Assembly: GCA_015232465.1 (NCBI GenBank)
Contig: JADFZO010000017.1
Location: 1-43,517, forward strand
Origin: Desulfamplus sp.
GTDB lineage: Bacteria > Desulfobacterota > Desulfobacteria > Desulfobacterales > Desulfobacteraceae
Reading direction: 5' to 3'
Length of the DNA stretch: 43,517 nt
The notes under the pieces were generated by a model. It was not told the DNA's origin. It made no database searches and saw only the letters and a program-made list of their open reading frames with translations. The stretch's first letter is position 1; each line of letters begins with the position of its first letter. The position numbers were made by a program, and so were the translations under genes. Shown here one piece after another: positions 4,272 to 13,315 of the stretch.

Positions 4272-5150
4272 ATGATAATTACAGTAGCAAGCGGTAAAGG
4301 TGGAACAGGCAAGACAACAGTTGCTGTAAATCTTGCAACCATAGCAGCAGAAAAAGGGTCAGTTGAGCTTTTTGACTGCGATGTTGAAGAGCCAAATGCC
4401 CACCTATTTGTTAAGCCTCAAAATATCACCAAAAAAGAGGTCTCAACCATGATCCCATCGGTTGATATTGCTCTTTGTAATTTATGTCAAGAGTGCGAAA
4501 AAATATGCCGTTTTAGTGCAATTAATATTGTTGCAAAAAAGATTATGGTATTTGCTGATATGTGCCACTCATGCAAAGGCTGCCTTATGGTCTGCCCAAC
4601 TGGTGCAATTTCAGAGGGTGCTCGTCAGCTTGGTTCAGTTCTTACTGGTTATAGCAAACAGGGCTTTAAACTGACATGGGGAGAGCTAAGGGTTGGTGAG
4701 GCTATGTCTCCCCCCTTAATTAAAAAGGTTAAAGATGAGATTAACAATTTATATAATTTAATATCAATAGTTGATGCCCCGCCCGGTACATCGTGCCCTG
4801 CTATTACAACGCTTCGTGATTCTGATTTTGCCCTGCTTGTTGCTGAAGAGACCCCTTTTGGTCTTAATGATCTTACTTTAACTGTTGAGGGGCTTAAAAA
4901 ACTTGGTGTTCCAATGGCAATTGTGATCAATAGAGCAGAAGAGTCAAAGGGGATTATTGATGACTATGCAGAGCATGAAAATATTGAGATTTTAGGGAAA
5001 ATTCCATTTAGCAAAGAGGCTGCTAAAATCTGCTCAAAGGGGCTATTTTTGGTTGAGGAGATGGCTGAAATAAGGGCAATTTTTCAAAAAATCTATCAAA
5101 AAATCTATTGCAAAATTGTAAAAACTGAAAATAAAGGGGAGATAAAATGA
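4272..5150 (+). CDS. MinD-superfamily P-loop ATPase with inserted 2x[4Fe-4S] ferredoxin domain (ORP-cluster type)
   Basis: Cytoplasmic ATPase of 292 residues. A deviant Walker A motif (KGGTGKTT, residues 9-16) opens the protein. A bacterial ferredoxin insertion follows, with two CxxCxxCxxxC sets at Cys69/72/75/79 and Cys98/101/104/108. The MinD fold then resumes with DAPPGTSCP. This architecture is known from the Mrp/MinD-like ATPases of the Desulfovibrio vulgaris orange-protein operons and from related clusters in anaerobes, where it is thought to serve metal-cluster handling or positioning. It overlaps the next gene by 4 nt (ATGA), so the pair is translationally coupled. The ATG at 4272 follows AAGGAT. 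Domain assignment is firm; biochemical role is inferred. Confidence 0.9.
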   Translation: MIITVASGKGGTGKTTVAVNLATIAAEKGSVELFDCDVEEPNAHLFVKPQNITKKEVSTMIPSVDIALCNLCQECEKICRFSAINIVAKKIMVFADMCHSCKGCLMVCPTGAISEGARQLGSVLTGYSKQGFKLTWGELRVGEAMSPPLIKKVKDEINNLYNLISIVDAPPGTSCPAITTLRDSDFALLVAEETPFGLNDLTLTVEGLKKLGVPMAIVINRAEESKGIIDDYAEHENIEILGKIPFSKEAAKICSKGLFLVEEMAEIRAIFQKIYQKIYCKIVKTENKGEIK

Positions 5151-6061
5151 GAGAGCTAACCATCATAAGTGGTAAAGGTGGAACAGGAAAGACCAGCATA
5201 ACAGCCTCTATCGCCTCCCTTGCTGAAAATAGAGTTGTTATTGATGCTGATGTTGATGCTGCAAACCTTTTTTTAACACTTGAGCATAAACTTATAGAAA
5301 AAGAGCCTTTTCAGGGGGGGCACAAGGCTCGCATAGATATAGATAGCTGTGTTGGTTGTGCTGAATGCCTCAATCGCTGTCAGTTTGATGCTGTTTTTGA
5401 GAAGTTAGATCAAGATAAAAAACCTACTGGTAAATTTTCAATTGATCCCATCTCATGCGAAGGTTGCGGAGTTTGTGCCCATTTTTGTCCAACTGGTGCA
5501 ATTTTGTTTGAGCGTCAAATTTGCGGCGAAAAATATATCTCAACAACTGCAAATGGTCCAATGGTTCACGCAAGACTTGGTATTGCTGAGGAGAACTCTG
5601 GATTGCTTGTAAGCCAACTGCGTCAAAGGGCAAGAGAGATTGCCAAAAAGCAAAAAATCCCTTTAATTATAACAGATGGACCGCCCGGCATTGGTTGCCC
5701 TGTTATTGCATCAATAAGCAATGCTGATGCCCTGCTTGTTGTTACTGAACCAACCATATCTGGTATGCACGATATGCAAAGAGTTATAAGACTTGGCAGA
5801 CAGATGAATGCTGCAATCTATCTTTGCATAAACAAAGCTGATTTAAATATTGAGGCATCAGAAAAGATAAAAGAGTTTTGTAACCACAACAAAATTAAAT
5901 TTGCAGGAGAGATTCCATTTGATAGGGCTGTTGTGGAATCTATGAAGATGGGTCAAAGCCTTGTTACATACTCTCCTGATAGTGAGGCATCTAAAGCTGT
6001 AAAACTGGTTTGGAAAAATGTTGTGGAGTTTATGGGCGATCTAAAAGAGCGGTTAATCTAA
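5147..6061 (+). CDS. Second MinD-superfamily ATPase with ferredoxin domain (ORP-cluster type)
   Basis: Paralogue of the preceding gene, 304 residues. Walker A is GKGGTGKTS (residues 9-17). The inserted ferredoxin domain has Cys68/71/74/78 and Cys104/107/110/114, with a longer linker between the two cluster motifs than in its partner. DGPPGIGCP marks the later nucleotide-binding loop. In characterised ORP operons two such ATPases are co-expressed and are proposed to work as a pair, possibly a heterodimer. The start ATG overlaps the upstream stop (ATGA at 5147-5150). A short gap of about 40 nt with a strong ribosome site leads into the ORP-like gene. Role inferred from family and neighbours. 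Confidence 0.9.
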   Translation: MRELTIISGKGGTGKTSITASIASLAENRVVIDADVDAANLFLTLEHKLIEKEPFQGGHKARIDIDSCVGCAECLNRCQFDAVFEKLDQDKKPTGKFSIDPISCEGCGVCAHFCPTGAILFERQICGEKYISTTANGPMVHARLGIAEENSGLLVSQLRQRAREIAKKQKIPLIITDGPPGIGCPVIASISNADALLVVTEPTISGMHDMQRVIRLGRQMNAAIYLCINKADLNIEASEKIKEFCNHNKIKFAGEIPFDRAVVESMKMGQSLVTYSPDSEASKAVKLVWKNVVEFMGDLKERLI

Positions 6062-6103
6062 CAAGATAAATATTGATTTAAAATTGTTTTAAAGGAGGTA
6101 CCA

Positions 6104-6466
6104 ATGAAAGTAGCAGTATCATCAAGCGGAGAGAGCCTTGATTCTGAGATTGATTTACGGTTTGGAAGGGCATCATACTTTTTGATTGTTGAGACAGATA
6201 CCCTTGATTTTGAGGTAAAGCCAAATGAGCAAAATATGGATCTACCACAAGGAGCTGGAATTCAGGCTGGTAAAACTGTTGTAAATTGCGGGGTTGAGGC
6301 AATCATTACAGGCAACTGCGGACCAAAGGCGTACAATGTTCTTGAGTCTGCTGGTGTCAAGGTGGTTACTGGAGTTAATGGAACTGTAAAAGAGGTTTTG
6401 GAAAAATTTAAAAAAGGTGAGCTTCAATATTCAGTATCAGCAAATGTTGAGGGTCATTGGGTCTAA
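6104..6466 (+). CDS. ORP/NifX-like metal-cluster-binding protein
   Basis: Small cytoplasmic protein of 120 residues with the fold of the dinitrogenase iron-molybdenum cofactor (NifB/NifX) family. It opens with MKVAVSSSGE, then DLRFGRASYF, and carries AIITGNCGPKAYNVLE and a GVKVVTGVNGTVKEVL-type end. The length matches orange protein (ORP) of Desulfovibrio, which binds a Mo-Cu sulfide cluster. The translation signal is near-perfect (AAAGGAGGT at 6091-6099, ATG at 6104), suggesting higher expression than the ATPases. There are no nif structural genes in the window, so I read it as ORP-type rather than nitrogen fixation. Metal content cannot be seen from sequence. Confidence 0.82.
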   Translation: MKVAVSSSGESLDSEIDLRFGRASYFLIVETDTLDFEVKPNEQNMDLPQGAGIQAGKTVVNCGVEAIITGNCGPKAYNVLESAGVKVVTGVNGTVKEVLEKFKKGELQYSVSANVEGHWV

Positions 6467-6523
6467 TTTTTATATCAATTTTTAAGGTGTTAAATTTTAA
6501 GTTAAACAGATGAGGAAAATATT

Positions 6524-6886
6524 ATGAAATTTGCAATACCTATGGCAATGGGTAAATTAACGGCACATTTTGGACACTGCAAAGAGTTCTGTTTTGTTAC
6601 AACTGAAGATCAAAAGGTAAAAAATAGAGAGGTTCTTGTGCCTCCACCACATGAACCGGGCGTGCTTCCAAAGTGGCTGCACGATCACGGCATTAATGTT
6701 GTTATTGCTGGTGGTATGGGGCATAAAGCACAAGAGCTTTTTTCACAGGCTGGTATAAAGGTTATTACTGGTGCTCCAGTAGAAGCACCTGAAAAGTTGG
6801 TTGCTGATTATCTTGCAAACTCGCTTGTAACTGGCGAAAATGTTTGTGGGCATGATCCAAACTCTGCTTGCAACCATAACCATTAA
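6524..6886 (+). CDS. NifX/NifB-family protein with Cys/His-rich tail
   Basis: Second 120-residue NifX-like protein of the cluster. The N terminus MKFAIPMAMGKLTAHFGHC is typical of the subgroup with a FGHC motif, and GGMGHKAQELF and GAPVEAPEKLV follow. It ends in a metal-ligand-rich tail, VCGHDPNSACNHNH, which the ORP-like neighbour lacks. Such tails may bind or deliver metal; this is inference. It lies 57 nt after the ORP-like gene and is read in the same direction, so it is probably the last gene of the operon. An inverted repeat sits about 20 nt past its stop. Confidence 0.82.
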   Translation: MKFAIPMAMGKLTAHFGHCKEFCFVTTEDQKVKNREVLVPPPHEPGVLPKWLHDHGINVVIAGGMGHKAQELFSQAGIKVITGAPVEAPEKLVADYLANSLVTGENVCGHDPNSACNHNH

Positions 6887-6904
6887 TTGTATTGATTTTA
6901 CATC

Positions 6905-6928
6905 AGAGACGCACCATCGTGCGTCTCT
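6905..6928. repeat. Perfect hairpin, REP-like (AGAGACGCAC / GTGCGTCTCT)
   Basis: A 10-bp perfect inverted repeat with a 4-nt loop (CATC), in the gap between two convergent genes. It is much more GC-rich than its surroundings and lacks a long T tract, so it looks like a dispersed REP-like palindrome as much as a terminator. A hairpin of similar style occupies the convergent gap at 33947-33972. Confidence 0.6.
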
Positions 6929-7733
6929 ACATCGCCTCACCTTCAAGAGCACCTTTTTTATCAGTTCTTATAAGTGTTAAACCTAAAAGCCCATCCTCTT
7001 TTAAGACACGCCCATCATCATCAAGCCAAGTAAAGAGGTTTAAACCTTTAAATGATAGCGACACTTTTTGTGCTAAAATCTCTTTTCCATCAATATTGAC
7101 ACTCTCTTTAGCCTCAATCTTTACAGTTGCAGGTATCTGTCCAAGTGTTGATGGATCAAATATAAAGAGCACCATCTCATCACCTTGTTTAAGACCTGAT
7201 GCCAATGTTGCCTGAATTATTCCTGATGTCAGATATGGGCGATTTTCAAGAGGTATCTCAATTGTGCTATCTTTTTTATCTGAAGAAGAGTTAGAAACCA
7301 AAGAGTTATTATTTTTAATAATTATGGTATTGCCTTTGATCTCGCCATTTAAAGATAGGTTAAAGCTACCTGATGCAATTTTAAAATCAAATACTTGGAC
7401 TGCAAAATCCATATCAGTTGTGCTTTTGGACTCAATATCAACCTTTTGAGCTAAACCCATTGTGTTTAGCTTCATCACACTCTTTTCATTGATGTTGTAG
7501 CCTTGTCTCAATTTCTTGATGGTTCTATGGGTAAACCCTATCTTTTTTGAATTTTGGTAAATATTCATCCAAGATTCATCATATTTTGTAGCTTTTAAGA
7601 GCCAATTAGAGCTATTGCCAACCTGTTTAAATGTGCCATTGTAGAGCGTAACCCTATAAACCATAATAGAGACAAATAAAATGGTTGAGAGGGTCGCACC
7701 AATTAAAAATGGTCTATTTTTATGAAGTCGCAC
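6927..7733 (-). CDS. Membrane-anchored protein of unknown function
   Basis: I do not recognise the family with confidence. Read from a GTG at 7733 it is 268 residues: a short basic start (VRLHKNRP read as Met), one hydrophobic helix near residues 8-26, then a soluble, mainly beta-type domain. ESWMNIYQNSKKIGFTH and IEIPLENRPYLTSGI are its most distinctive segments. A downstream part contains IDGKEILAQKVSL and WLDDDGRVLKE, reminiscent of envelope proteins with repeated strands. The frame is open further upstream, to 7892, but that part lies inside the preceding gene. The GTG gives a 14-nt overlap with the rhodanese gene stop at 7720, and this coupling suggests joint expression. Likely anchored in the inner membrane facing the periplasm (inference). 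Confidence 0.6.
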   Translation of the reverse strand: MRLHKNRPFLIGATLSTILFVSIMVYRVTLYNGTFKQVGNSSNWLLKATKYDESWMNIYQNSKKIGFTHRTIKKLRQGYNINEKSVMKLNTMGLAQKVDIESKSTTDMDFAVQVFDFKIASGSFNLSLNGEIKGNTIIIKNNNSLVSNSSSDKKDSTIEIPLENRPYLTSGIIQATLASGLKQGDEMVLFIFDPSTLGQIPATVKIEAKESVNIDGKEILAQKVSLSFKGLNLFTWLDDDGRVLKEDGLLGLTLIRTDKKGALEGEAM

Positions 7734-8577
7734 GCTCAAGAGCCTTAATAAGAGTATCCATGTGAGATTTTTCAGCTTGCGAAAGTGAGTAAAAGGCATC
7801 TTTAAGAGAGCCATTATCAACTCTTTCTGATATGACCCTGTAAAGATCAAACGCCCGATACTCCATTGAAATCGCAACTTCAAGAATATCAATATTTTGA
7901 TCTTTAGTCCTATTCTCTATAAGTTTAACCATCTCATCAAAGGTTGCACCCCCTTCAAGAATATCGCCTTTTAATTTTTCATAAAGAGTGTCAAATTCAG
8001 AGAAAACTTGATCATTTGGCAAAATCTTTTTTAAATGGGAGTAGATAAGTTTTGCGTGTCCAAGCTCTCCATCTCTTGCATTTTTGATAACTTCAACCAT
8101 AGAGTCTCCACCATTATTTGAAGGAGATTTATTAAAATTAGCATCTAAATCAAAATGGTTAAGTATATGCTCGTAAAACCTAAAAGCACCTTTTTCTAAA
8201 TTTATGGCATCTAAAAGTGTCTCATGCAGCTCTTTATTTAGATCAAAAGTTTTAAAACATGGAAGACCACTAACTGTGATCCCCTGCCAACCCAATATAC
8301 CACCTTCAAGAGTGTATATATCTTTTTTTGACTCATTGAAAAAGTCCGCTGTAATGGCTGCTGCTTTAGAGCGAATACCGCTTCTGCAATAGAAGATTAG
8401 ATTCTTTTCAGGAAGCTCCTCTACCTGCTCCTCAAACTCATTTAATGGAAGAATTATTGAGCCTGAGATGTGGCTCTCTTCATACTCATTAGGCTGCCTT
8501 ACATCAATTAAAAGATAGCTCTTTTCATGCTCTTTTTCTCTATATTCACGTAACTCATCAGCAGTCATTGATTTCAT
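7720..8577 (-). CDS. Rhodanese-ferritin-like fusion protein
   Basis: Protein of 285 residues in two parts. Residues 1 to about 110 form a rhodanese domain (LLIDVRQPNEYEESHISGS) with the active-site loop CRSGIR and catalytic Cys64, as in single-domain sulfurtransferases. After a linker, the rest is a ferritin/rubrerythrin-like four-helix domain with EKGAFRFYEH, DGELGHAK, MEYRAFDLY and QAEKSHM, which supply Glu and ExxH-type ligands for a diiron site. No rubredoxin-like CxxC pair is present. Fusions of this type occur in anaerobes and are linked to sulfur transfer and peroxide or oxygen defence, but the exact reaction is not known. GAGGG lies upstream of the ATG at 8577. Confidence 0.85.
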   Translation of the reverse strand: MKSMTADELREYREKEHEKSYLLIDVRQPNEYEESHISGSIILPLNEFEEQVEELPEKNLIFYCRSGIRSKAAAITADFFNESKKDIYTLEGGILGWQGITVSGLPCFKTFDLNKELHETLLDAINLEKGAFRFYEHILNHFDLDANFNKSPSNNGGDSMVEVIKNARDGELGHAKLIYSHLKKILPNDQVFSEFDTLYEKLKGDILEGGATFDEMVKLIENRTKDQNIDILEVAISMEYRAFDLYRVISERVDNGSLKDAFYSLSQAEKSHMDTLIKALERATS

Positions 8578-8606
8578 TTAAAATTCCCTCACTCTTAAGT
8601 AAACAG

Positions 8607-9797
8607 CTATTTTGGCTGATTTGAAAGGTATTTTTGATAACCATATCTTGATATGATGATCTGCTGCATCTGGTTGCTACCCTCAATTATCTCCATTATC
8701 TTTGCATCTCTAAAGTGCCTCTCAACAGGATAGCTATCAGAGCAACCGTTTGCACCATGTATCTGGACAGCATCGCTTGCAACTTTAAGTGCTGTGCGTG
8801 ATGCAAAATATTTTGCCATTGAGGTCTCCATTATAACTGAAGGGTCTTTGCTCTGCCTTAAAAATGCAGCATTATAGCAGAGCATTCTTGCAGCTTGAGT
8901 CTGGGTAATCATATCAGCCACAAGCTCTTGAATTAACTGATGCTCTTTTAAGCTCACCCCAAACTGTTTTCTTTGCGTGCTATATGAAAGTGATGCCTCA
9001 AGAGAGCCTTGAGCAATTCCAACACAGCCCCATGCAATGCAGTACCTGCCCTGATCCAACGCTGTGCCAGCAACATGGGAAAATCCAAAGCCAATCTTGC
9101 CAACCATATTTGAGGCTGGAATTTGGCAATTTTCCATGTTAAGTGTTGCAAGCATTGCAGATCGAAACCCTAACATGCCGGTTATTGGCTCAGTAGAGAA
9201 GCCATCTTGTTCACGCTCAACAAGAAATGCAGTTGCCTTTCCATCAACTTGAGCTAAGATCAAAAAAAGATTTGCAACCTGACCAAACGAGATCCACCGT
9301 TTTTGACCATTGAGGATATAGTTATCACCATCTTTTATAGCTGTTGTCTGTGCATTTTTTGCATCACTTCCAACCTTTGCCTCAGTAAGTCCAAATCCAC
9401 CAATAACCTTGCCAGTTGCAAGAAGAGGGAGCCACTTATCACGCTGCTCTTTAGTTCCCCATTTTATGAGCGTCTGAATAACCATGCTGTGAACAGTGAG
9501 CAGTGATACAAGCGAGCCACTTGCTTTTCCAATCTCTTCACACAAAATACCCCATGTGAGCGGATCCATCTCCTGCGTCTGATTTGCTGCTTGATTGGAG
9601 ATATCATCTTGTTTGGTCAAATATGTTGATGGAACAAGTGCTCCAAGATAACCTTCATCAGCCATAATCTTTACAAGCTCAATTGGAGTTGTTTGGTTGC
9701 GATCATACTCAGCAGCATTTGGTGCAACATACCTATCAACAAACTGACGAAATTTTATCTGTGCATCTCTCTGTTCTGGTGTTAATTCAAAATTCAT
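8607..9797 (-). CDS. Acyl-CoA dehydrogenase family protein (FkbI-like by context)
   Basis: Flavin-dependent acyl-CoA dehydrogenase fold of 396 residues. Visible family signatures are GGFGLTEAKVGSDA (FAD/substrate loop), KRWISFG, a C-terminal VQIHGANGCSDSYPVERHFRDAK segment, and IIEGSNQMQ, whose Glu matches the usual catalytic base. I place the start at the ATG at 9797 because AGGAG precedes it at good distance; an extension of the frame upstream has no such site. Directly upstream come a discrete acyl carrier protein and a 3-hydroxyacyl-CoA dehydrogenase, all on the minus strand. That set matches FkbI-FkbJ-FkbK, where the dehydrogenase oxidises a carrier-bound three-carbon unit. Family certain, pathway inferred. 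Confidence 0.88.
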   Translation of the reverse strand: MNFELTPEQRDAQIKFRQFVDRYVAPNAAEYDRNQTTPIELVKIMADEGYLGALVPSTYLTKQDDISNQAANQTQEMDPLTWGILCEEIGKASGSLVSLLTVHSMVIQTLIKWGTKEQRDKWLPLLATGKVIGGFGLTEAKVGSDAKNAQTTAIKDGDNYILNGQKRWISFGQVANLFLILAQVDGKATAFLVEREQDGFSTEPITGMLGFRSAMLATLNMENCQIPASNMVGKIGFGFSHVAGTALDQGRYCIAWGCVGIAQGSLEASLSYSTQRKQFGVSLKEHQLIQELVADMITQTQAARMLCYNAAFLRQSKDPSVIMETSMAKYFASRTALKVASDAVQIHGANGCSDSYPVERHFRDAKIMEIIEGSNQMQQIIISRYGYQKYLSNQPK

Positions 9798-9828
9798 GGG
9801 GTAATCTCCTAAACGATTTTTTGTTTTT

Positions 9829-10083
9829 TCAAGCAGCTGGAGCAGCAAGTTTTCGCTGAATAAATCCTAAAATTGCGTCAATAGATTTAAAATTTTCATA
9901 ATCAAGGTCTTCATTTTCCACCTTAAATCCAAACTCTTTTTCCACAAATAGAACAAGCTGCATTGCAAATAGAGAGTTTACCCGTCCAGAGGCAAAGAGA
10001 TCAAGATCATTTGTAATTTCGCTGATGTTGACATATTGTCCCACAAACTTGGTCAATTTTGGCATTATATCTTCTGTGTTCAT
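9829..10083 (-). CDS. Discrete acyl carrier protein (FkbJ-like by context)
   Basis: Acyl or peptidyl carrier protein of 84 residues, ending AAPAA. The phosphopantetheine attachment Ser is Ser37 within GRVNSLFAMQLV. The usual residue before it is Asp (DSL), and here it is Asn. The following helix LVLFVEKEFGFKVENEDL is typical. It does not look like the fatty-acid-synthase ACP, which normally sits with fabD, fabG or fabF and has DSLD. It lies 31 nt upstream of the acyl-CoA dehydrogenase start and about 54 nt downstream of the hydroxyacyl-CoA dehydrogenase, so the three are probably one operon. It would carry the substrate of both dehydrogenases. Confidence 0.85.
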   Translation of the reverse strand: MNTEDIMPKLTKFVGQYVNISEITNDLDLFASGRVNSLFAMQLVLFVEKEFGFKVENEDLDYENFKSIDAILGFIQRKLAAPAA

Positions 10084-10137
10084 TGTTTTTAGGTCTCTTT
10101 AATTTTAATAAATATAGAAAGTTGTTTTAAATTTAAT

Positions 10138-10992
10138 TTAATATGAATAAAAACCTTTTCCGCTTTTGCGTCCTAACAGCCCAGCATCAACCATCTTTTT
10201 TAACAATCCACATGGGCGATATTTGCTGTCATTAAAGCTCTCGTGCAGAACCTCAATTGAGTATAAAATAGTGTCAAGCCCAATAAGATCAGCAGTCTCA
10301 AGAGGTCCCATCTTATGCCCAAAACACTTTTTAAATATATCATCAACATCTTTAGCAGTTGCAACCTGCTCTTGAAGAAGAAATATCGCCTCATTGATTG
10401 TGAGCATCAAAACACGATTAGAGACAAATCCAGGTGAGTCATTAACAATTACCCAATCTTTGCCCATAGCTTTAAGAAGATCAGTTGTGATGTTAATTGT
10501 CTCCTCTGATGTGTGCCACCCCTTTATAACCTCAACAGTTGGCTTCATTGGAACAGGATTCATAAAGTGGATACCAATAACCTTGTCAGCACGATTTGTC
10601 AGTGCACCTACACGGGTGATTGAGTAGCATGATGTATCAACCGCAAACACAGCATCTTTAGGGCAGATTTTATCTAAGCGTGGATAGACTTCGCTCTTTA
10701 CAGCCCACTTTTCAACAACATTTTCAACAACATAATAGACATCTTTTAGCTGCTCGTAATCTGTAGTAAATAGAATCCTATCCAAAATCGTATCAGGGTT
10801 GTCAACCAGACTCTTATCTTTTTTCATAAAACCTTGAAAACGGACGTTATTATAAATCTCTTTTTTTGCCCGCTCAAGTGCTGCTGCTGCAACATCAATC
10901 AACACAACCTTAAAGCTGCTCTGTGCAAGATTTTGTGCAACGCCGCTTCCCATTACACCAGCACCAATGACTCCTACTATATTTTCAGCCAT
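10138..10992 (-). CDS. 3-hydroxyacyl-CoA dehydrogenase family protein (FkbK-like by context)
   Basis: NAD-dependent dehydrogenase of 284 residues. The Rossmann motif GAGVMG is at residues 10-15. The catalytic His142 sits in GIHFMNPVPMKPTVEV, and a second half has SPGFVSNRVLMLTINEA and the C-terminal LGRKSGKGFYSY, all diagnostic of the 3-hydroxyacyl-CoA dehydrogenase family. I prefer the ATG at 10992 because GGGAG lies 8 nt upstream; the in-frame ATG at 11007 would overlap that site. Next to a discrete carrier protein and an acyl-CoA dehydrogenase it resembles FkbK/ZmaG, which oxidise glyceryl-ACP on the way to hydroxymalonyl-ACP. It could instead be an ordinary 3-hydroxybutyryl-CoA dehydrogenase. 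Confidence 0.85.
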   Translation of the reverse strand: MAENIVGVIGAGVMGSGVAQNLAQSSFKVVLIDVAAAALERAKKEIYNNVRFQGFMKKDKSLVDNPDTILDRILFTTDYEQLKDVYYVVENVVEKWAVKSEVYPRLDKICPKDAVFAVDTSCYSITRVGALTNRADKVIGIHFMNPVPMKPTVEVIKGWHTSEETINITTDLLKAMGKDWVIVNDSPGFVSNRVLMLTINEAIFLLQEQVATAKDVDDIFKKCFGHKMGPLETADLIGLDTILYSIEVLHESFNDSKYRPCGLLKKMVDAGLLGRKSGKGFYSY

Positions 10993-11294
10993 AAGAACTA
11001 CTCCCATATTATTTTTTTACATAAATTATAATAATCCCCAAAATCTAAATGCTTTATCGCAATTAATCGTCAAATTAACTCATATTGAGGTTGCTTTAGA
11101 AAAAAGGCTCGTAAAGAAAATTTACGATATATTAAGAGTGAAATTTGGTGGGATTAAATACTTGCGGATTTTAAAGCTCTTTTTGTATCAAGATAGATTT
11201 GACAAATCTTATAAATACTGTGCCAAATCTATCTTAAATATTTGTTATAAATATCTATATAATTAACTTAAAAATCAAGATATTATATTGTGGT
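10993..11294. other. Intergenic stretch with a 12-bp inverted repeat
   Basis: About 300 nt separating the hydroxyacyl-CoA dehydrogenase from the DUF697 gene, both on the minus strand. The one clear structure is a perfect 12-bp inverted repeat, AAGATAGATTTG at 11190-11201 and CAAATCTATCTT at 11224-11235, with a 22-nt spacer. It may end transcription of the DUF697 gene or serve as an operator for the dehydrogenase operon. I see no convincing gene here. Confidence 0.5.
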
Positions 11295-12023
11295 TTAGCC
11301 CACTTTTGCCTCTGATTTAGCAAACTCTTTTCCCTTCTCAAACTGCTCTTGAAAATACCCCTTTACCTTATCAGGATCAAATGTTAGGAATGTTCCGCCT
11401 GACTCAAAGTGCTGAATAAAGACCTGTCCAACAGCATAAGTTGCAGCACCAGCAATAACTGGCATTGAAACTGCCCCCATGATTGGTCCAATAACTGGTA
11501 TTGTTTTGGCAAGAGAGCTTATCCATGGTCCAGTTGCAACTGGCACGAAACCGCCAGTAAGGGTAGTTATGGCGGTTTTACCAATATCTTTGCTAAATTT
11601 TATATCATAAAGTTTAGCAAGTGCCCTTACTGTATCCATCTGAATACCAGTTAAGGCAACAATATCAACTATTGGAAATGGAATAAGACCAGCACCAACA
11701 GATGCTATCATTCTGTTTTTAACGATATGATTTGCCTCTGCTACCTTCTCTTTAGGGGTCATTGGGGTTTCTGTCTTCTCTGTGCTCTCTTTTTGTTCAT
11801 TTTTCATCTCTGTTTTGGTCTCCTTTATTTGATTTGTTGTTGAACTCTGTTGAGTTGAGCCACTTGGACTCTGTTGAGCCGCACCGCTCGCACTCGCTTG
11901 AGTTGTGGTTGCTGAATTTTGTTGATTTATGGTCGTTGATGTTGGATTGGTAGTTGGATTATCTTTTTTAACCTTATCATCTTTAGGCTTTTCCATTTTT
12001 TCGCTCTTTTCCTCTTTCACCAT
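11295..12023 (-). CDS. DUF697 (YcjF-type) family protein with low-complexity N terminus
   Basis: Protein of 242 residues. The first 90 or so are charged and then Ser/Thr/Gln-rich and clearly disordered. From about residue 90 the DUF697 domain appears: KEKVAEANHIVKNRMIASV, GLIPFPIVDIVALTGIQMD, and later GPIMGAVSMPVIAGAATYAVG, giving amphipathic or membrane-inserted helices. The last part is charged (FEKGKEFAKSE). DUF697 proteins are often found beside or fused to small GTPases and are thought to act at membranes; no GTPase gene is visible here. AAGGAG lies 4 nt before the ATG at 12023. Function unknown. Confidence 0.78.
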   Translation of the reverse strand: MVKEEKSEKMEKPKDDKVKKDNPTTNPTSTTINQQNSATTTQASASGAAQQSPSGSTQQSSTTNQIKETKTEMKNEQKESTEKTETPMTPKEKVAEANHIVKNRMIASVGAGLIPFPIVDIVALTGIQMDTVRALAKLYDIKFSKDIGKTAITTLTGGFVPVATGPWISSLAKTIPVIGPIMGAVSMPVIAGAATYAVGQVFIQHFESGGTFLTFDPDKVKGYFQEQFEKGKEFAKSEAKVG

Positions 12024-12430
12024 AACGCTCCTTGTTGCTTTATGTATTTATATTGACTCTTTTATTTTCTTTGTTGATGCTTTTATTTTGCTTTTTTAAA
12101 AGCAAAATAAATTGTATTAGATATAATTATTTATGGTAGATAGTTATTTAAAATCTAATTAAAAACTTTTATCTTTTAAATAAATTCTTGTCAATGAGTT
12201 TAATATCATTATATTAATTCAAAATAATATCTATGAAATACTTAACCATGATTAATAGTTAAAAAAACTTAAGCATAAAAATTTGGCTATTTTTTTGAAA
12301 ACTATCAAATCTACATATTGACAAGAGTATCTGACTAAGATATTGTGAAAAATTATTAATTCTAAAAGATAAGACGGCAAGCTTACTTAATAGAATATCA
12401 ATTTATTTTTTTAACAGGAGGTAGTTTTAA
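12024..12430. other. Divergent regulatory region between the DUF697 gene and dsrC
   Basis: 407 nt without a gene, very AT-rich. It holds the dsrC promoter (12318-12346) and, nearer the DUF697 gene, a perfect 12-bp palindromic arm pair TTATTTTGCTTT / AAAGCAAAATAA at 12083-12094 and 12099-12110 with a 4-nt loop. No other clear structure was found. Confidence 0.55.
12318..12346 (+). promoter_or_regulatory. Sigma-70-type promoter of dsrC
   Basis: TTGACA at 12318-12323 and TATTGT at 12341-12346 with a 17-bp spacer, about 85 nt before the dsrC ATG. The leader ends in a strong ribosome site, AGGAGGT, 8 nt before the ATG. The match to consensus and the strong ribosome site fit an abundantly made protein such as DsrC. 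Confidence 0.65.
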
Positions 12431-12748
12431 ATGGCGAGCATAGAGATAAATGGAACCACTTTTGAAGTTGATGAGGATGGTTTTCTTCTTGATTACAAAA
12501 CATTCACTAATGATTGGGTTGAGTATGTAAGACAGCAAGAGGGAATTGAAGAGCTTACAGACGAGCATTGGTCAGTAGTTAATGTTCTTCAAGACTACTA
12601 TGAGAAAAATGGTATTGCTCCAATGGTAAGAGTTCTTTCTAAACTTACTAAGTTTAAACTAAAACACATCTATGAGCTGTTCCCATCAGGACCTGGAAAA
12701 GGAGCCTGTAAAATGGCTGGTCTTCCAAAACCAACTGGTTGTGTGTGA
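12431..12748 (+). CDS. dsrC: DsrC, sulfur-carrier partner of dissimilatory sulfite reductase
   Basis: Cytoplasmic sulfur-carrier protein of 105 residues. DsrC receives sulfite-derived sulfur from DsrAB as a trisulfide between two C-terminal cysteines, later reduced at the membrane by DsrMKJOP. Both are present: Cys93 in GACKMAG and the penultimate Cys104 in PTGCV, ten residues apart. Many DsrC/TusE homologues keep only the last cysteine, so this is a bona fide DsrC rather than a TusE. The family core WVEYVRQQEG and LQDYYEKNGIAPMVR is intact. It is monocistronic by its own promoter and a strong terminator just downstream. Its location away from dsrAB is usual in sulfate reducers. Confidence 0.96.
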   Translation: MASIEINGTTFEVDEDGFLLDYKTFTNDWVEYVRQQEGIEELTDEHWSVVNVLQDYYEKNGIAPMVRVLSKLTKFKLKHIYELFPSGPGKGACKMAGLPKPTGCV

Positions 12749-12856: not shown

Positions 12857-13315
12857 ATGAGCAAAATTGATGATATAGACAAAAAGATAATCAACAGAAT
12901 CCAAACCTTGTTTCCGATTGCTCCTGAACCATATAAGTTAATAGCCAAAGAGCTTGGGCTATTAGAAGATGAGTTAATATCAAGGATAAAAAGGTTAAAA
13001 GATGAGGGGGTTATTAGACGAATTGGGGGTAACTTTGGACCATACAAACTTGGTTTTTTTAGCACACTTTGTACTGCCTCTGTCCCTGATGATGCTTTAG
13101 AACTCTTTACAAAGGTTGTTAATGGCTATTCAGGGGTAACTCACAACTACATGAGAAACCATAGGTATAATGTATGGTTTACCTTTATAGCAGAATCTAT
13201 GGAGATTATCGAAAACAACCTTAAAGAGATATCTGAAAAGACAGGTGTTTATGATATTTTAAATCTTCCAGCTACAGATGTCTTTAAAATCAGTGCTAAC
13301 TTCAAAGTTGTTTAA
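12857..13315 (+). CDS. ahbA: AhbA-like sirohaem decarboxylase subunit (Lrp/AsnC fold)
   Basis: Protein of 152 residues built like an Lrp/AsnC regulator: a winged helix (about 1-60, DDIDKKIINRIQ and LKDEGVIRRIGGNFG) followed by an alpha/beta domain. The GVTHNYMRNHRYNVWFTF segment is typical of AhbA/NirD-type decarboxylases rather than true Lrp regulators. AhbA and AhbB form the sirohaem decarboxylase of the alternative haem pathway used by sulfate reducers, turning sirohaem into didecarboxysirohaem. The THNY...R pattern favours AhbA; AhbB usually shows a CYER-type motif. No ahbB is adjacent. The ribosome site is weak (AAGAG). It follows the dsrC terminator, fitting a sirohaem-rich sulfite-reducing cell. 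Subunit assignment is less sure than family. Confidence 0.75.
   Translation: MSKIDDIDKKIINRIQTLFPIAPEPYKLIAKELGLLEDELISRIKRLKDEGVIRRIGGNFGPYKLGFFSTLCTASVPDDALELFTKVVNGYSGVTHNYMRNHRYNVWFTFIAESMEIIENNLKEISEKTGVYDILNLPATDVFKISANFKVV

Follow-up and report, generated by a model that had tools for sequence, protein, structure and literature searches.

The enzymes FkbH–FkbK of FK520 biosynthesis, accompanied there by the methyltransferase FkbG, belong to the same families as the proteins described below and have a like proposed chemistry. In the butyrolactol A cluster of Streptomyces, a 3-hydroxyacyl-CoA dehydrogenase (HADH), an acyl carrier protein (ACP), an acyl-CoA dehydrogenase (ACAD), and FkbH are encoded in this order, labeling supports hydroxymalonyl-ACP, and no homolog of an O-methyltransferase was detected in the vicinity of the four-gene set (PMC5355916). 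The order is the same for BafAI–BafAV of bafilomycin biosynthesis in Streptomyces griseus, which lie in a single cluster with an O-methyltransferase for methoxymalonyl-ACP as the fifth gene (PMC3679948), and ZmaD, ZmaE, ZmaG, and ZmaN of zwittermicin A form a like enzyme set for hydroxymalonyl-ACP (PMC5355916). A 2017 paper regarded the pathway as confined to the genera Bacillus, Xenorhabdus, Paenibacillus, and Streptomyces (PMC5355916). Polyketide synthase (PKS) and nonribosomal peptide synthetase (NRPS) genes were counted in Desulfamplus strain BW-1, where a hybrid cluster is described as having no assignable specific pathway (PMC4306944). No report of the pathway in Desulfamplus or sulfate reducers was found in the literature searched (titles and abstract openings). 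Here, we describe a gene trio in a 43,517-nucleotide stretch of DNA from Desulfamplus sp. (the window) that, judged from its sequence, very probably encodes the final steps in the synthesis of a hydroxymalonyl-ACP extender unit, scattered from the FkbH and PKS genes.

The window is the entire contig C56 of genome G000 (3,017,047 bases, 147 contigs, 85.9% complete), whose source is uncultured and related to a magnetotactic bacterium. The HADH, ACP, and ACAD genes, which the original prediction had recognized as an FkbI–FkbJ–FkbK-like trio, are three intact consecutive open reading frames (ORFs) on the minus strand with Pfam matches (Table 1), ATG starts at 10992, 10083, and 9797, and a total span of exactly 8607–10992. 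The genes are separated by 54 and 31 bp, AGGAG is located ahead of the ATG of the ACAD gene, and a single transcript for the trio is plausible. None of the three proteins reached a curated NCBIfam cut-off. The phosphopantetheine serine (S37) of the ACP is identical in all 12 aligned ACPs from HADH–ACP–ACAD–FkbH cassettes. In the HADH, S121, H142, E154, and N192, which we take to be the counterparts of the catalytic residues of human HAD, are at least 95% conserved across 96 cassette rows. Fourteen alignment columns, nearly fixed differently, divide these rows from 16 paralogs ("paralog" and "beta-oxidation type" are labels, set by sequence, for an HADH group at 43–49%), and K150 is Lys in 96 of 96 cassette rows versus Met in 16 of 16 paralogs. 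E372 of the ACAD (in EGSNQ), presumably the catalytic base, is at least 95% conserved across 82 cassette ACADs. A relative of the HADH with 89% identity was found at the Desulfamplus sp. locus L111.

The original prediction had seen no FkbH or PKS in the window, and neither was found among the eight window proteins scanned around the trio. Of its two alternatives, the one that these genes are located elsewhere holds: FkbH is encoded on C122, far above the cut-off of its family (Table 1), and type I PKS modules are on C72 and C53, whereas the alternative of a new use of the trio found no positive evidence in this genome. D45, D47, T49, and C296 of FkbH, which are presumably functional residues, are at least 95% conserved across 76 FkbHs. 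The FkbH gene is flanked by a poly(A)-polymerase gene on one side and an ABC-ATPase gene on the other. C53 also carries NRPS domains, including adenylation domains, and its cluster further encodes an AMP-ligase, a protein of the ornithine-cyclodeaminase family, and an S-adenosylmethionine (SAM) methyltransferase. Another gene looked like that of an amidinotransferase when inspected by eye but had no family match. Apart from these contigs, a long ORF on C91 has ketosynthase (KS) matches and presumably resembles a polyunsaturated fatty acid synthase.

Phylogenetic trees were built for the HADH, ACAD, and FkbH by quick searches with SH-aLRT (approximate likelihood-ratio) values as the only support, and FkbI, FkbK, and ZmaE/ZmaG are absent from them. 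In the HADH tree (61 of the 112 collected rows, hand-picked for spread), one branch with a support of 100 parted 48 cassette rows from 13 paralogs. Similarly, one branch with a support of 99 parted 38 cassette rows from 11 other ACADs in the ACAD tree (49 rows hand-picked for spread, the cassette rows being from 82 collected). FkbH of the window's genome nests in a cassette-type clade with the linked FkbHs of two congeners (G001 and G003), followed by those of Thalassomonas, Delftia, and Kiritimatiellales (support 98), in a 47-row tree whose non-cassette FkbHs include long branches. The branching order of FkbH is close to that of the HADH. G123 has a second FkbH match, and this one, like those in G019, G031, G069, and G128, is 25–34% identical and belongs to another class on long branches. 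The original prediction had named grouping with beta-oxidation enzymes and the lack of FkbH as the findings that together would refute it. Both dehydrogenases, however, fall in clades with enzymes of FkbH cassettes and are set apart from those relatives of the beta-oxidation type that were sampled, and the genome has an FkbH; the hydroxymalonyl-type reading is thus supported.

The distribution of the genes among 144 other genomes also supports this reading. A trio-type HADH (at least 58%) was found in 10 genomes (G001, G002, G004, G005, G006, G008, G011, G096, G117, and G123) and FkbH in 15, with both in nine (Fisher 8e-10); outside the genus, four of the four HADH genomes have FkbH (Fisher 1e-5). 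The Fisher values are uncorrected for relatedness, and G003 and G091 were counted as having FkbH without the trio. The ACP of G002 (70%) is a gene that an ORF-based neighborhood listing had missed, such listings losing genes under longer overlapping ORFs. The HADH, ACP, and ACAD stand together in six congeners (G001, G002, G004, G005, G006, and G008), and the trio is therefore not a chance neighborhood. G001, G011, and G123 carry HADH–ACP–ACAD–FkbH as one contiguous set. The order is also kept in G096 and G117 with two genes interposed, namely one between the ACP and ACAD, which is of the beta-lactamase family in G096 and is partly masked in the case of G117, and, ahead of FkbH in both, an AMP-ligase gene (52–55% versus the AMP-ligase of C53). 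At a contig end of G003, the ACP (91%), ACAD (75%), and FkbH are in a row, and no HADH at 58% or above was found. Thus FkbH is beside or near trio genes in the congeners G001 and G003 and also in G011 and three other families of the order. KS genes are present on the cassette stretches of G001, G096, and G117 and absent from those of G011 and G123; a fragment 50% like a sulfotransferase of C72 precedes the HADH gene of G123.

In the window's genome and in G004, G005, G006, and G008, the trio and FkbH are on different contigs. The neighbors of the trio differ among G000, G004, and the G005/G006/G008 group, and those of FkbH do likewise. Since the FkbH tree sets these split genomes beside the linked congeners, the scattering is more likely derived than ancestral, and a formerly contiguous cassette has probably been broken up in this part of the genus. 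PIN-domain genes, which we take to be of the toxin–antitoxin type, are found near FkbH on C122 and flanking the G001 cassette (Table 1), and a link to gene movement is possible.

Beyond the order, the best 80 named loci from a contig scan, belonging to many phyla, were surveyed; 17 of them have a flank shorter than 5 kb. Counted by tblastn, FkbH, ACAD, ACP, and KS were present in 65, 66, 76, and 66 of the 80 loci, and in 55, 53, 61, and 57 of the 63 without such a short flank. In a plasmid collection, the HADH, ACAD, and FkbH mostly shared their best-matching records, which were plasmids of cyanobacteria, Streptomyces, and Alkalihalophilus, and a viral-contig scan with the HADH gave no relative.

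Here, we propose the pathway that we infer from these data. FkbH would take a d-glyceryl unit from 1,3-bisphosphoglycerate and load it onto the ACP of the window. The NAD-dependent HADH would then oxidize the C3 alcohol to the aldehyde, and the flavoprotein ACAD would oxidize the aldehyde to the acid, giving 2-hydroxymalonyl-ACP; an electron-transfer flavoprotein perhaps accepts the electrons of the ACAD. The unit is most likely consumed by the type I PKS/NRPS line that C72 and C53 encode. As the trio, FkbH, and PKS are on different contigs, the ACP, once loaded, has to get to the PKS in trans. The linked cassettes share their gene order with the butyrolactol A and bafilomycin clusters. In the butyrolactol A cluster, whose host is an actinomycete, the four genes are located downstream of the PKS (PMC5355916), in contrast to the separate contigs of FkbH and PKS here.

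How a PKS would accept such a unit was considered from the acyltransferase (AT) motifs, GYSxG being the signature of ATs with an ACP-bound substrate. ZmaA-AT has GYSFG and MCM (PMC4207774), whereas the ATs on C72 and C53 have GHSxG (GHSSG, GHSVG, GHSLG, and GHSIG), and in two of these the carrier motif reads FCR or FCK. The other ATs read in the genome have GHSVG (C91) and GHSFG (C59), and a seventh, weak PF00698 place on C58 had no motif printed. Among the best 80 named loci, GYSxG ATs were found in 36 of 65 FkbH-positive and 2 of 15 FkbH-negative loci, with any AT match in 56 and 9, respectively; GYSxG also occurs near the G001 cassette, and none was seen near those of G096 and G117. The N-terminal AT on C72 belongs to a class that, at 43% or above, occurs in seven other genomes, all with the trio, among the 145 searched. 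This 43% cut was chosen after viewing the list, matches of 33–38% exist in trio-less genomes, and the correlation falls partly within one genus. GHSAG and LGFH are the motifs of the relatives in G117 and G096, along with FCR or FSR, and in G117 the cassette and an N-terminal AT (46%) are on one contig. Furthermore, G004, G005, G006, and G008 contain a module matching the C72–C53 junction, in which the AT is shortened and lacks the GHSxG serine. A more distant copy in G002 also lacks this serine, and a 30%-similar stretch of G117 (L095) retains GHS; the assembly of G000 breaks at the junction, with ~67 residues missing between the contigs. The module with the shortened AT would need loading in trans, and that it takes hydroxymalonyl is a guess. 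It is conceivable, albeit doubtful, that in this branch of Desulfamplus hydroxymalonyl-ACP is a trans-acting, genome-wide supply, in which the trio and FkbH, both roaming, feed the PKS with the dead AT and the new N-terminal AT class delivers the unit in a cis/trans hybrid manner.

Several observations weigh against a hydroxymalonyl-ACP pathway serving a PKS. The solved structure of FkbI (1r2j) is not the closest one to the ACAD but ranks 54th. It ranks 46th for a cassette ACAD profile (249.6 bits versus 338.6 for the best) and 24th for the cassette ACAD of S. cattleyicolor, and it is absent among the 12 listed matches of an actinobacterial cassette ACAD profile. GYSxG is absent from all six ATs whose motif was read in the genome. 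FkbH and PKS are unlinked to the trio in the window's genome, no FkbH was found in G002 (72% complete), which has the trio, and no trio-type HADH was found in G091, which has a cassette-type FkbH (64%). Fifteen of the best 80 named loci are without FkbH and 14 without KS, several of them being ended by contig ends. Lastly, genes of a sugar type adjoin the G011 cassette, and neither of its two stretches carries a KS. At this locus (L098, contig C16), a DegT aminotransferase, a hexapeptide transferase, an arginase-family gene, and methyltransferases are beside the cassette, and a non-polyketide use is possible.

Other explanations of the trio differ in the product or in the role assigned to it. 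Methylation of the unit by an O-methyltransferase to methoxymalonyl-ACP, as in bafilomycin and FK520, is unlikely. A candidate is the SAM methyltransferase in the C53 cluster, but its matches to UbiG (44.6 bits) and BioC, a malonyl-ACP O-methyltransferase (35.6 bits), are weak, it reached no NCBIfam cut-off, and it was never the best printed match for the cluster genes of G004 and G008 that were read. Among nine neighbors of the cassettes in G001, G096, and G123, a Pfam scan detected no methyltransferase, with three of the nine matching no family, and the neighbors in G117 were judged by homology alone. A loss of the polyketide role in the split part of the genus, with hydroxymalonyl or glyceryl supplied to, for example, a glycan or lipid, is a rather unlikely explanation. 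It would agree with the separation of the trio and FkbH in the five split genomes, the absence of KS from the trio stretches of G004, G005, G006, and G008, the lack of GYSxG in this genome, and the G011 cassette beside the DegT aminotransferase and hexapeptide transferase. The distribution of the N-terminal AT class, its cut being set afterwards, and its presence on the same contig as the cassette in G117 speak against such a loss, as does, weakly, the type I PKS linker PF16197, which is present in 11 of 11 trio genomes but also in G003, G007, G009, and 4 of 14 control genomes.

That the trio instead turns a seryl carrier into aminomalonyl-ACP, the route of zwittermicin, and that FkbH serves something else appears highly improbable. 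The window's HADH and ACAD and the FkbH of this genome group with FkbH-linked cassettes, and the ACAD gene adjoins FkbH in G001 and is its neighbor in G003, although the adenylation domains on C53 and the HADH relatives with ACP and KS genes at five loci without FkbH or ACAD would fit this activity. These five loci (L153, L160, L163, L164, and L172) perhaps represent another carrier-bound oxidation such as that to aminomalonyl. That the dehydrogenases are ordinary enzymes of fatty-acid or amino-acid degradation flanking an ACP by chance can be regarded as the most remote of the explanations. Their top NCBIfam matches, named 3-hydroxybutyryl-CoA dehydrogenase and acryloyl-CoA reductase, both fall short of the cut-off, and the best solved structures are acyl-CoA enzymes. 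On the other hand, the clade separation (99–100), the conserved carrier protein, and the co-occurrence of FkbH disagree with it, and the genome has a separate HADH paralog (47%) adjoining a thiolase gene and four further ACADs (35–42% versus the trio ACAD). Ordinary beta-oxidation was rejected by the HADH and ACAD trees.

Table 1. Positions of the trio and of other features in the window and elsewhere (plain numbers, window; L, other loci)
Feature	Position	Strand	Matches and remarks
HADH-like protein, FkbK/ZmaG type, 284 aa	10138..10992	-	PF02737 1.7e-52, PF00725 3.4e-34
Free-standing ACP, FkbJ/ZmaD type, 84 aa	9829..10083	-	PF00550 6.4e-6; S37 in VNSLFAMQLV
ACAD-like flavoprotein, FkbI/ZmaE type, 396 aa	8607..9797	-	PF00441 1.8e-43, PF02771, PF02770
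FkbH	G000:C122:3804-4721		TIGR01686 272.6 bits, cut-off 146.65
N-terminal AT on C72	L021:3175-4170		GHSSG, FCR, IPYH
Shortened-AT module	L192:4271-12268, L195:6475-14733, L197, L199, L204
SAM methyltransferase on C53	L022:14184-14915		Methyltransf_25/11
3753-aa ORF on C91	L025:2412-13673		Three ketosynthase matches
DUF697 protein, upstream of trio	11295..12023	-	PF05128; association only
Further DUF697 genes	L021:2612-3175 (C72), L022:7732-8214 (C53)		Adjoining PKS genes
Rhodanese-rubrerythrin fusion, next gene downstream of trio	7720..8577	-	PF00581, PF02915; gap 29 bp
PIN-domain gene near FkbH on C122	L019:1227-1628
PIN-domain genes flanking G001 cassette	L090:7328-7714, L090:12373-12819
DsrC-family protein adjoining siroheme decarboxylase AhbA	12431-12748, 12857-13315
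Two adjoining ATPase-like genes, then two small genes	4272-6886		Ferredoxin-like motifs in ATPase-like genes

As to the surroundings of the trio, homologs of the DUF697 protein (71–72%) occupy the same upstream position in G005 and G008, and none was seen at this position in G004 or G001. Further DUF697 genes are located beside the PKS genes of C72 and C53. The rhodanese-rubrerythrin fusion is probably outside the pathway; no homolog was found beside the trio among the loci inspected in ten relatives. A promoter/terminator scan of 6500–12500 gave 17 promoter-like sites versus 19.0 expected and 6 terminator-like sites versus 4.0 expected, and no tRNA was found in the window. Elsewhere in the window are the DsrC–AhbA pair and the ATPase-like genes, of which one ATPase and one of the small genes match parts of MrpORP below cut-off.

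The chemistry of the pathway is already known, and the scattering and the unusual ATs are its variant features. The trio widens the known range of a rare extender-unit pathway, adding Desulfamplus and further members of this order, and suggests that the pathway can persist after its genes are scattered, so that tools confined to one gene cluster would miss it. The N-terminal AT class and the module with the dead AT together provide a testable model for the trans loading of a carrier-bound extender.

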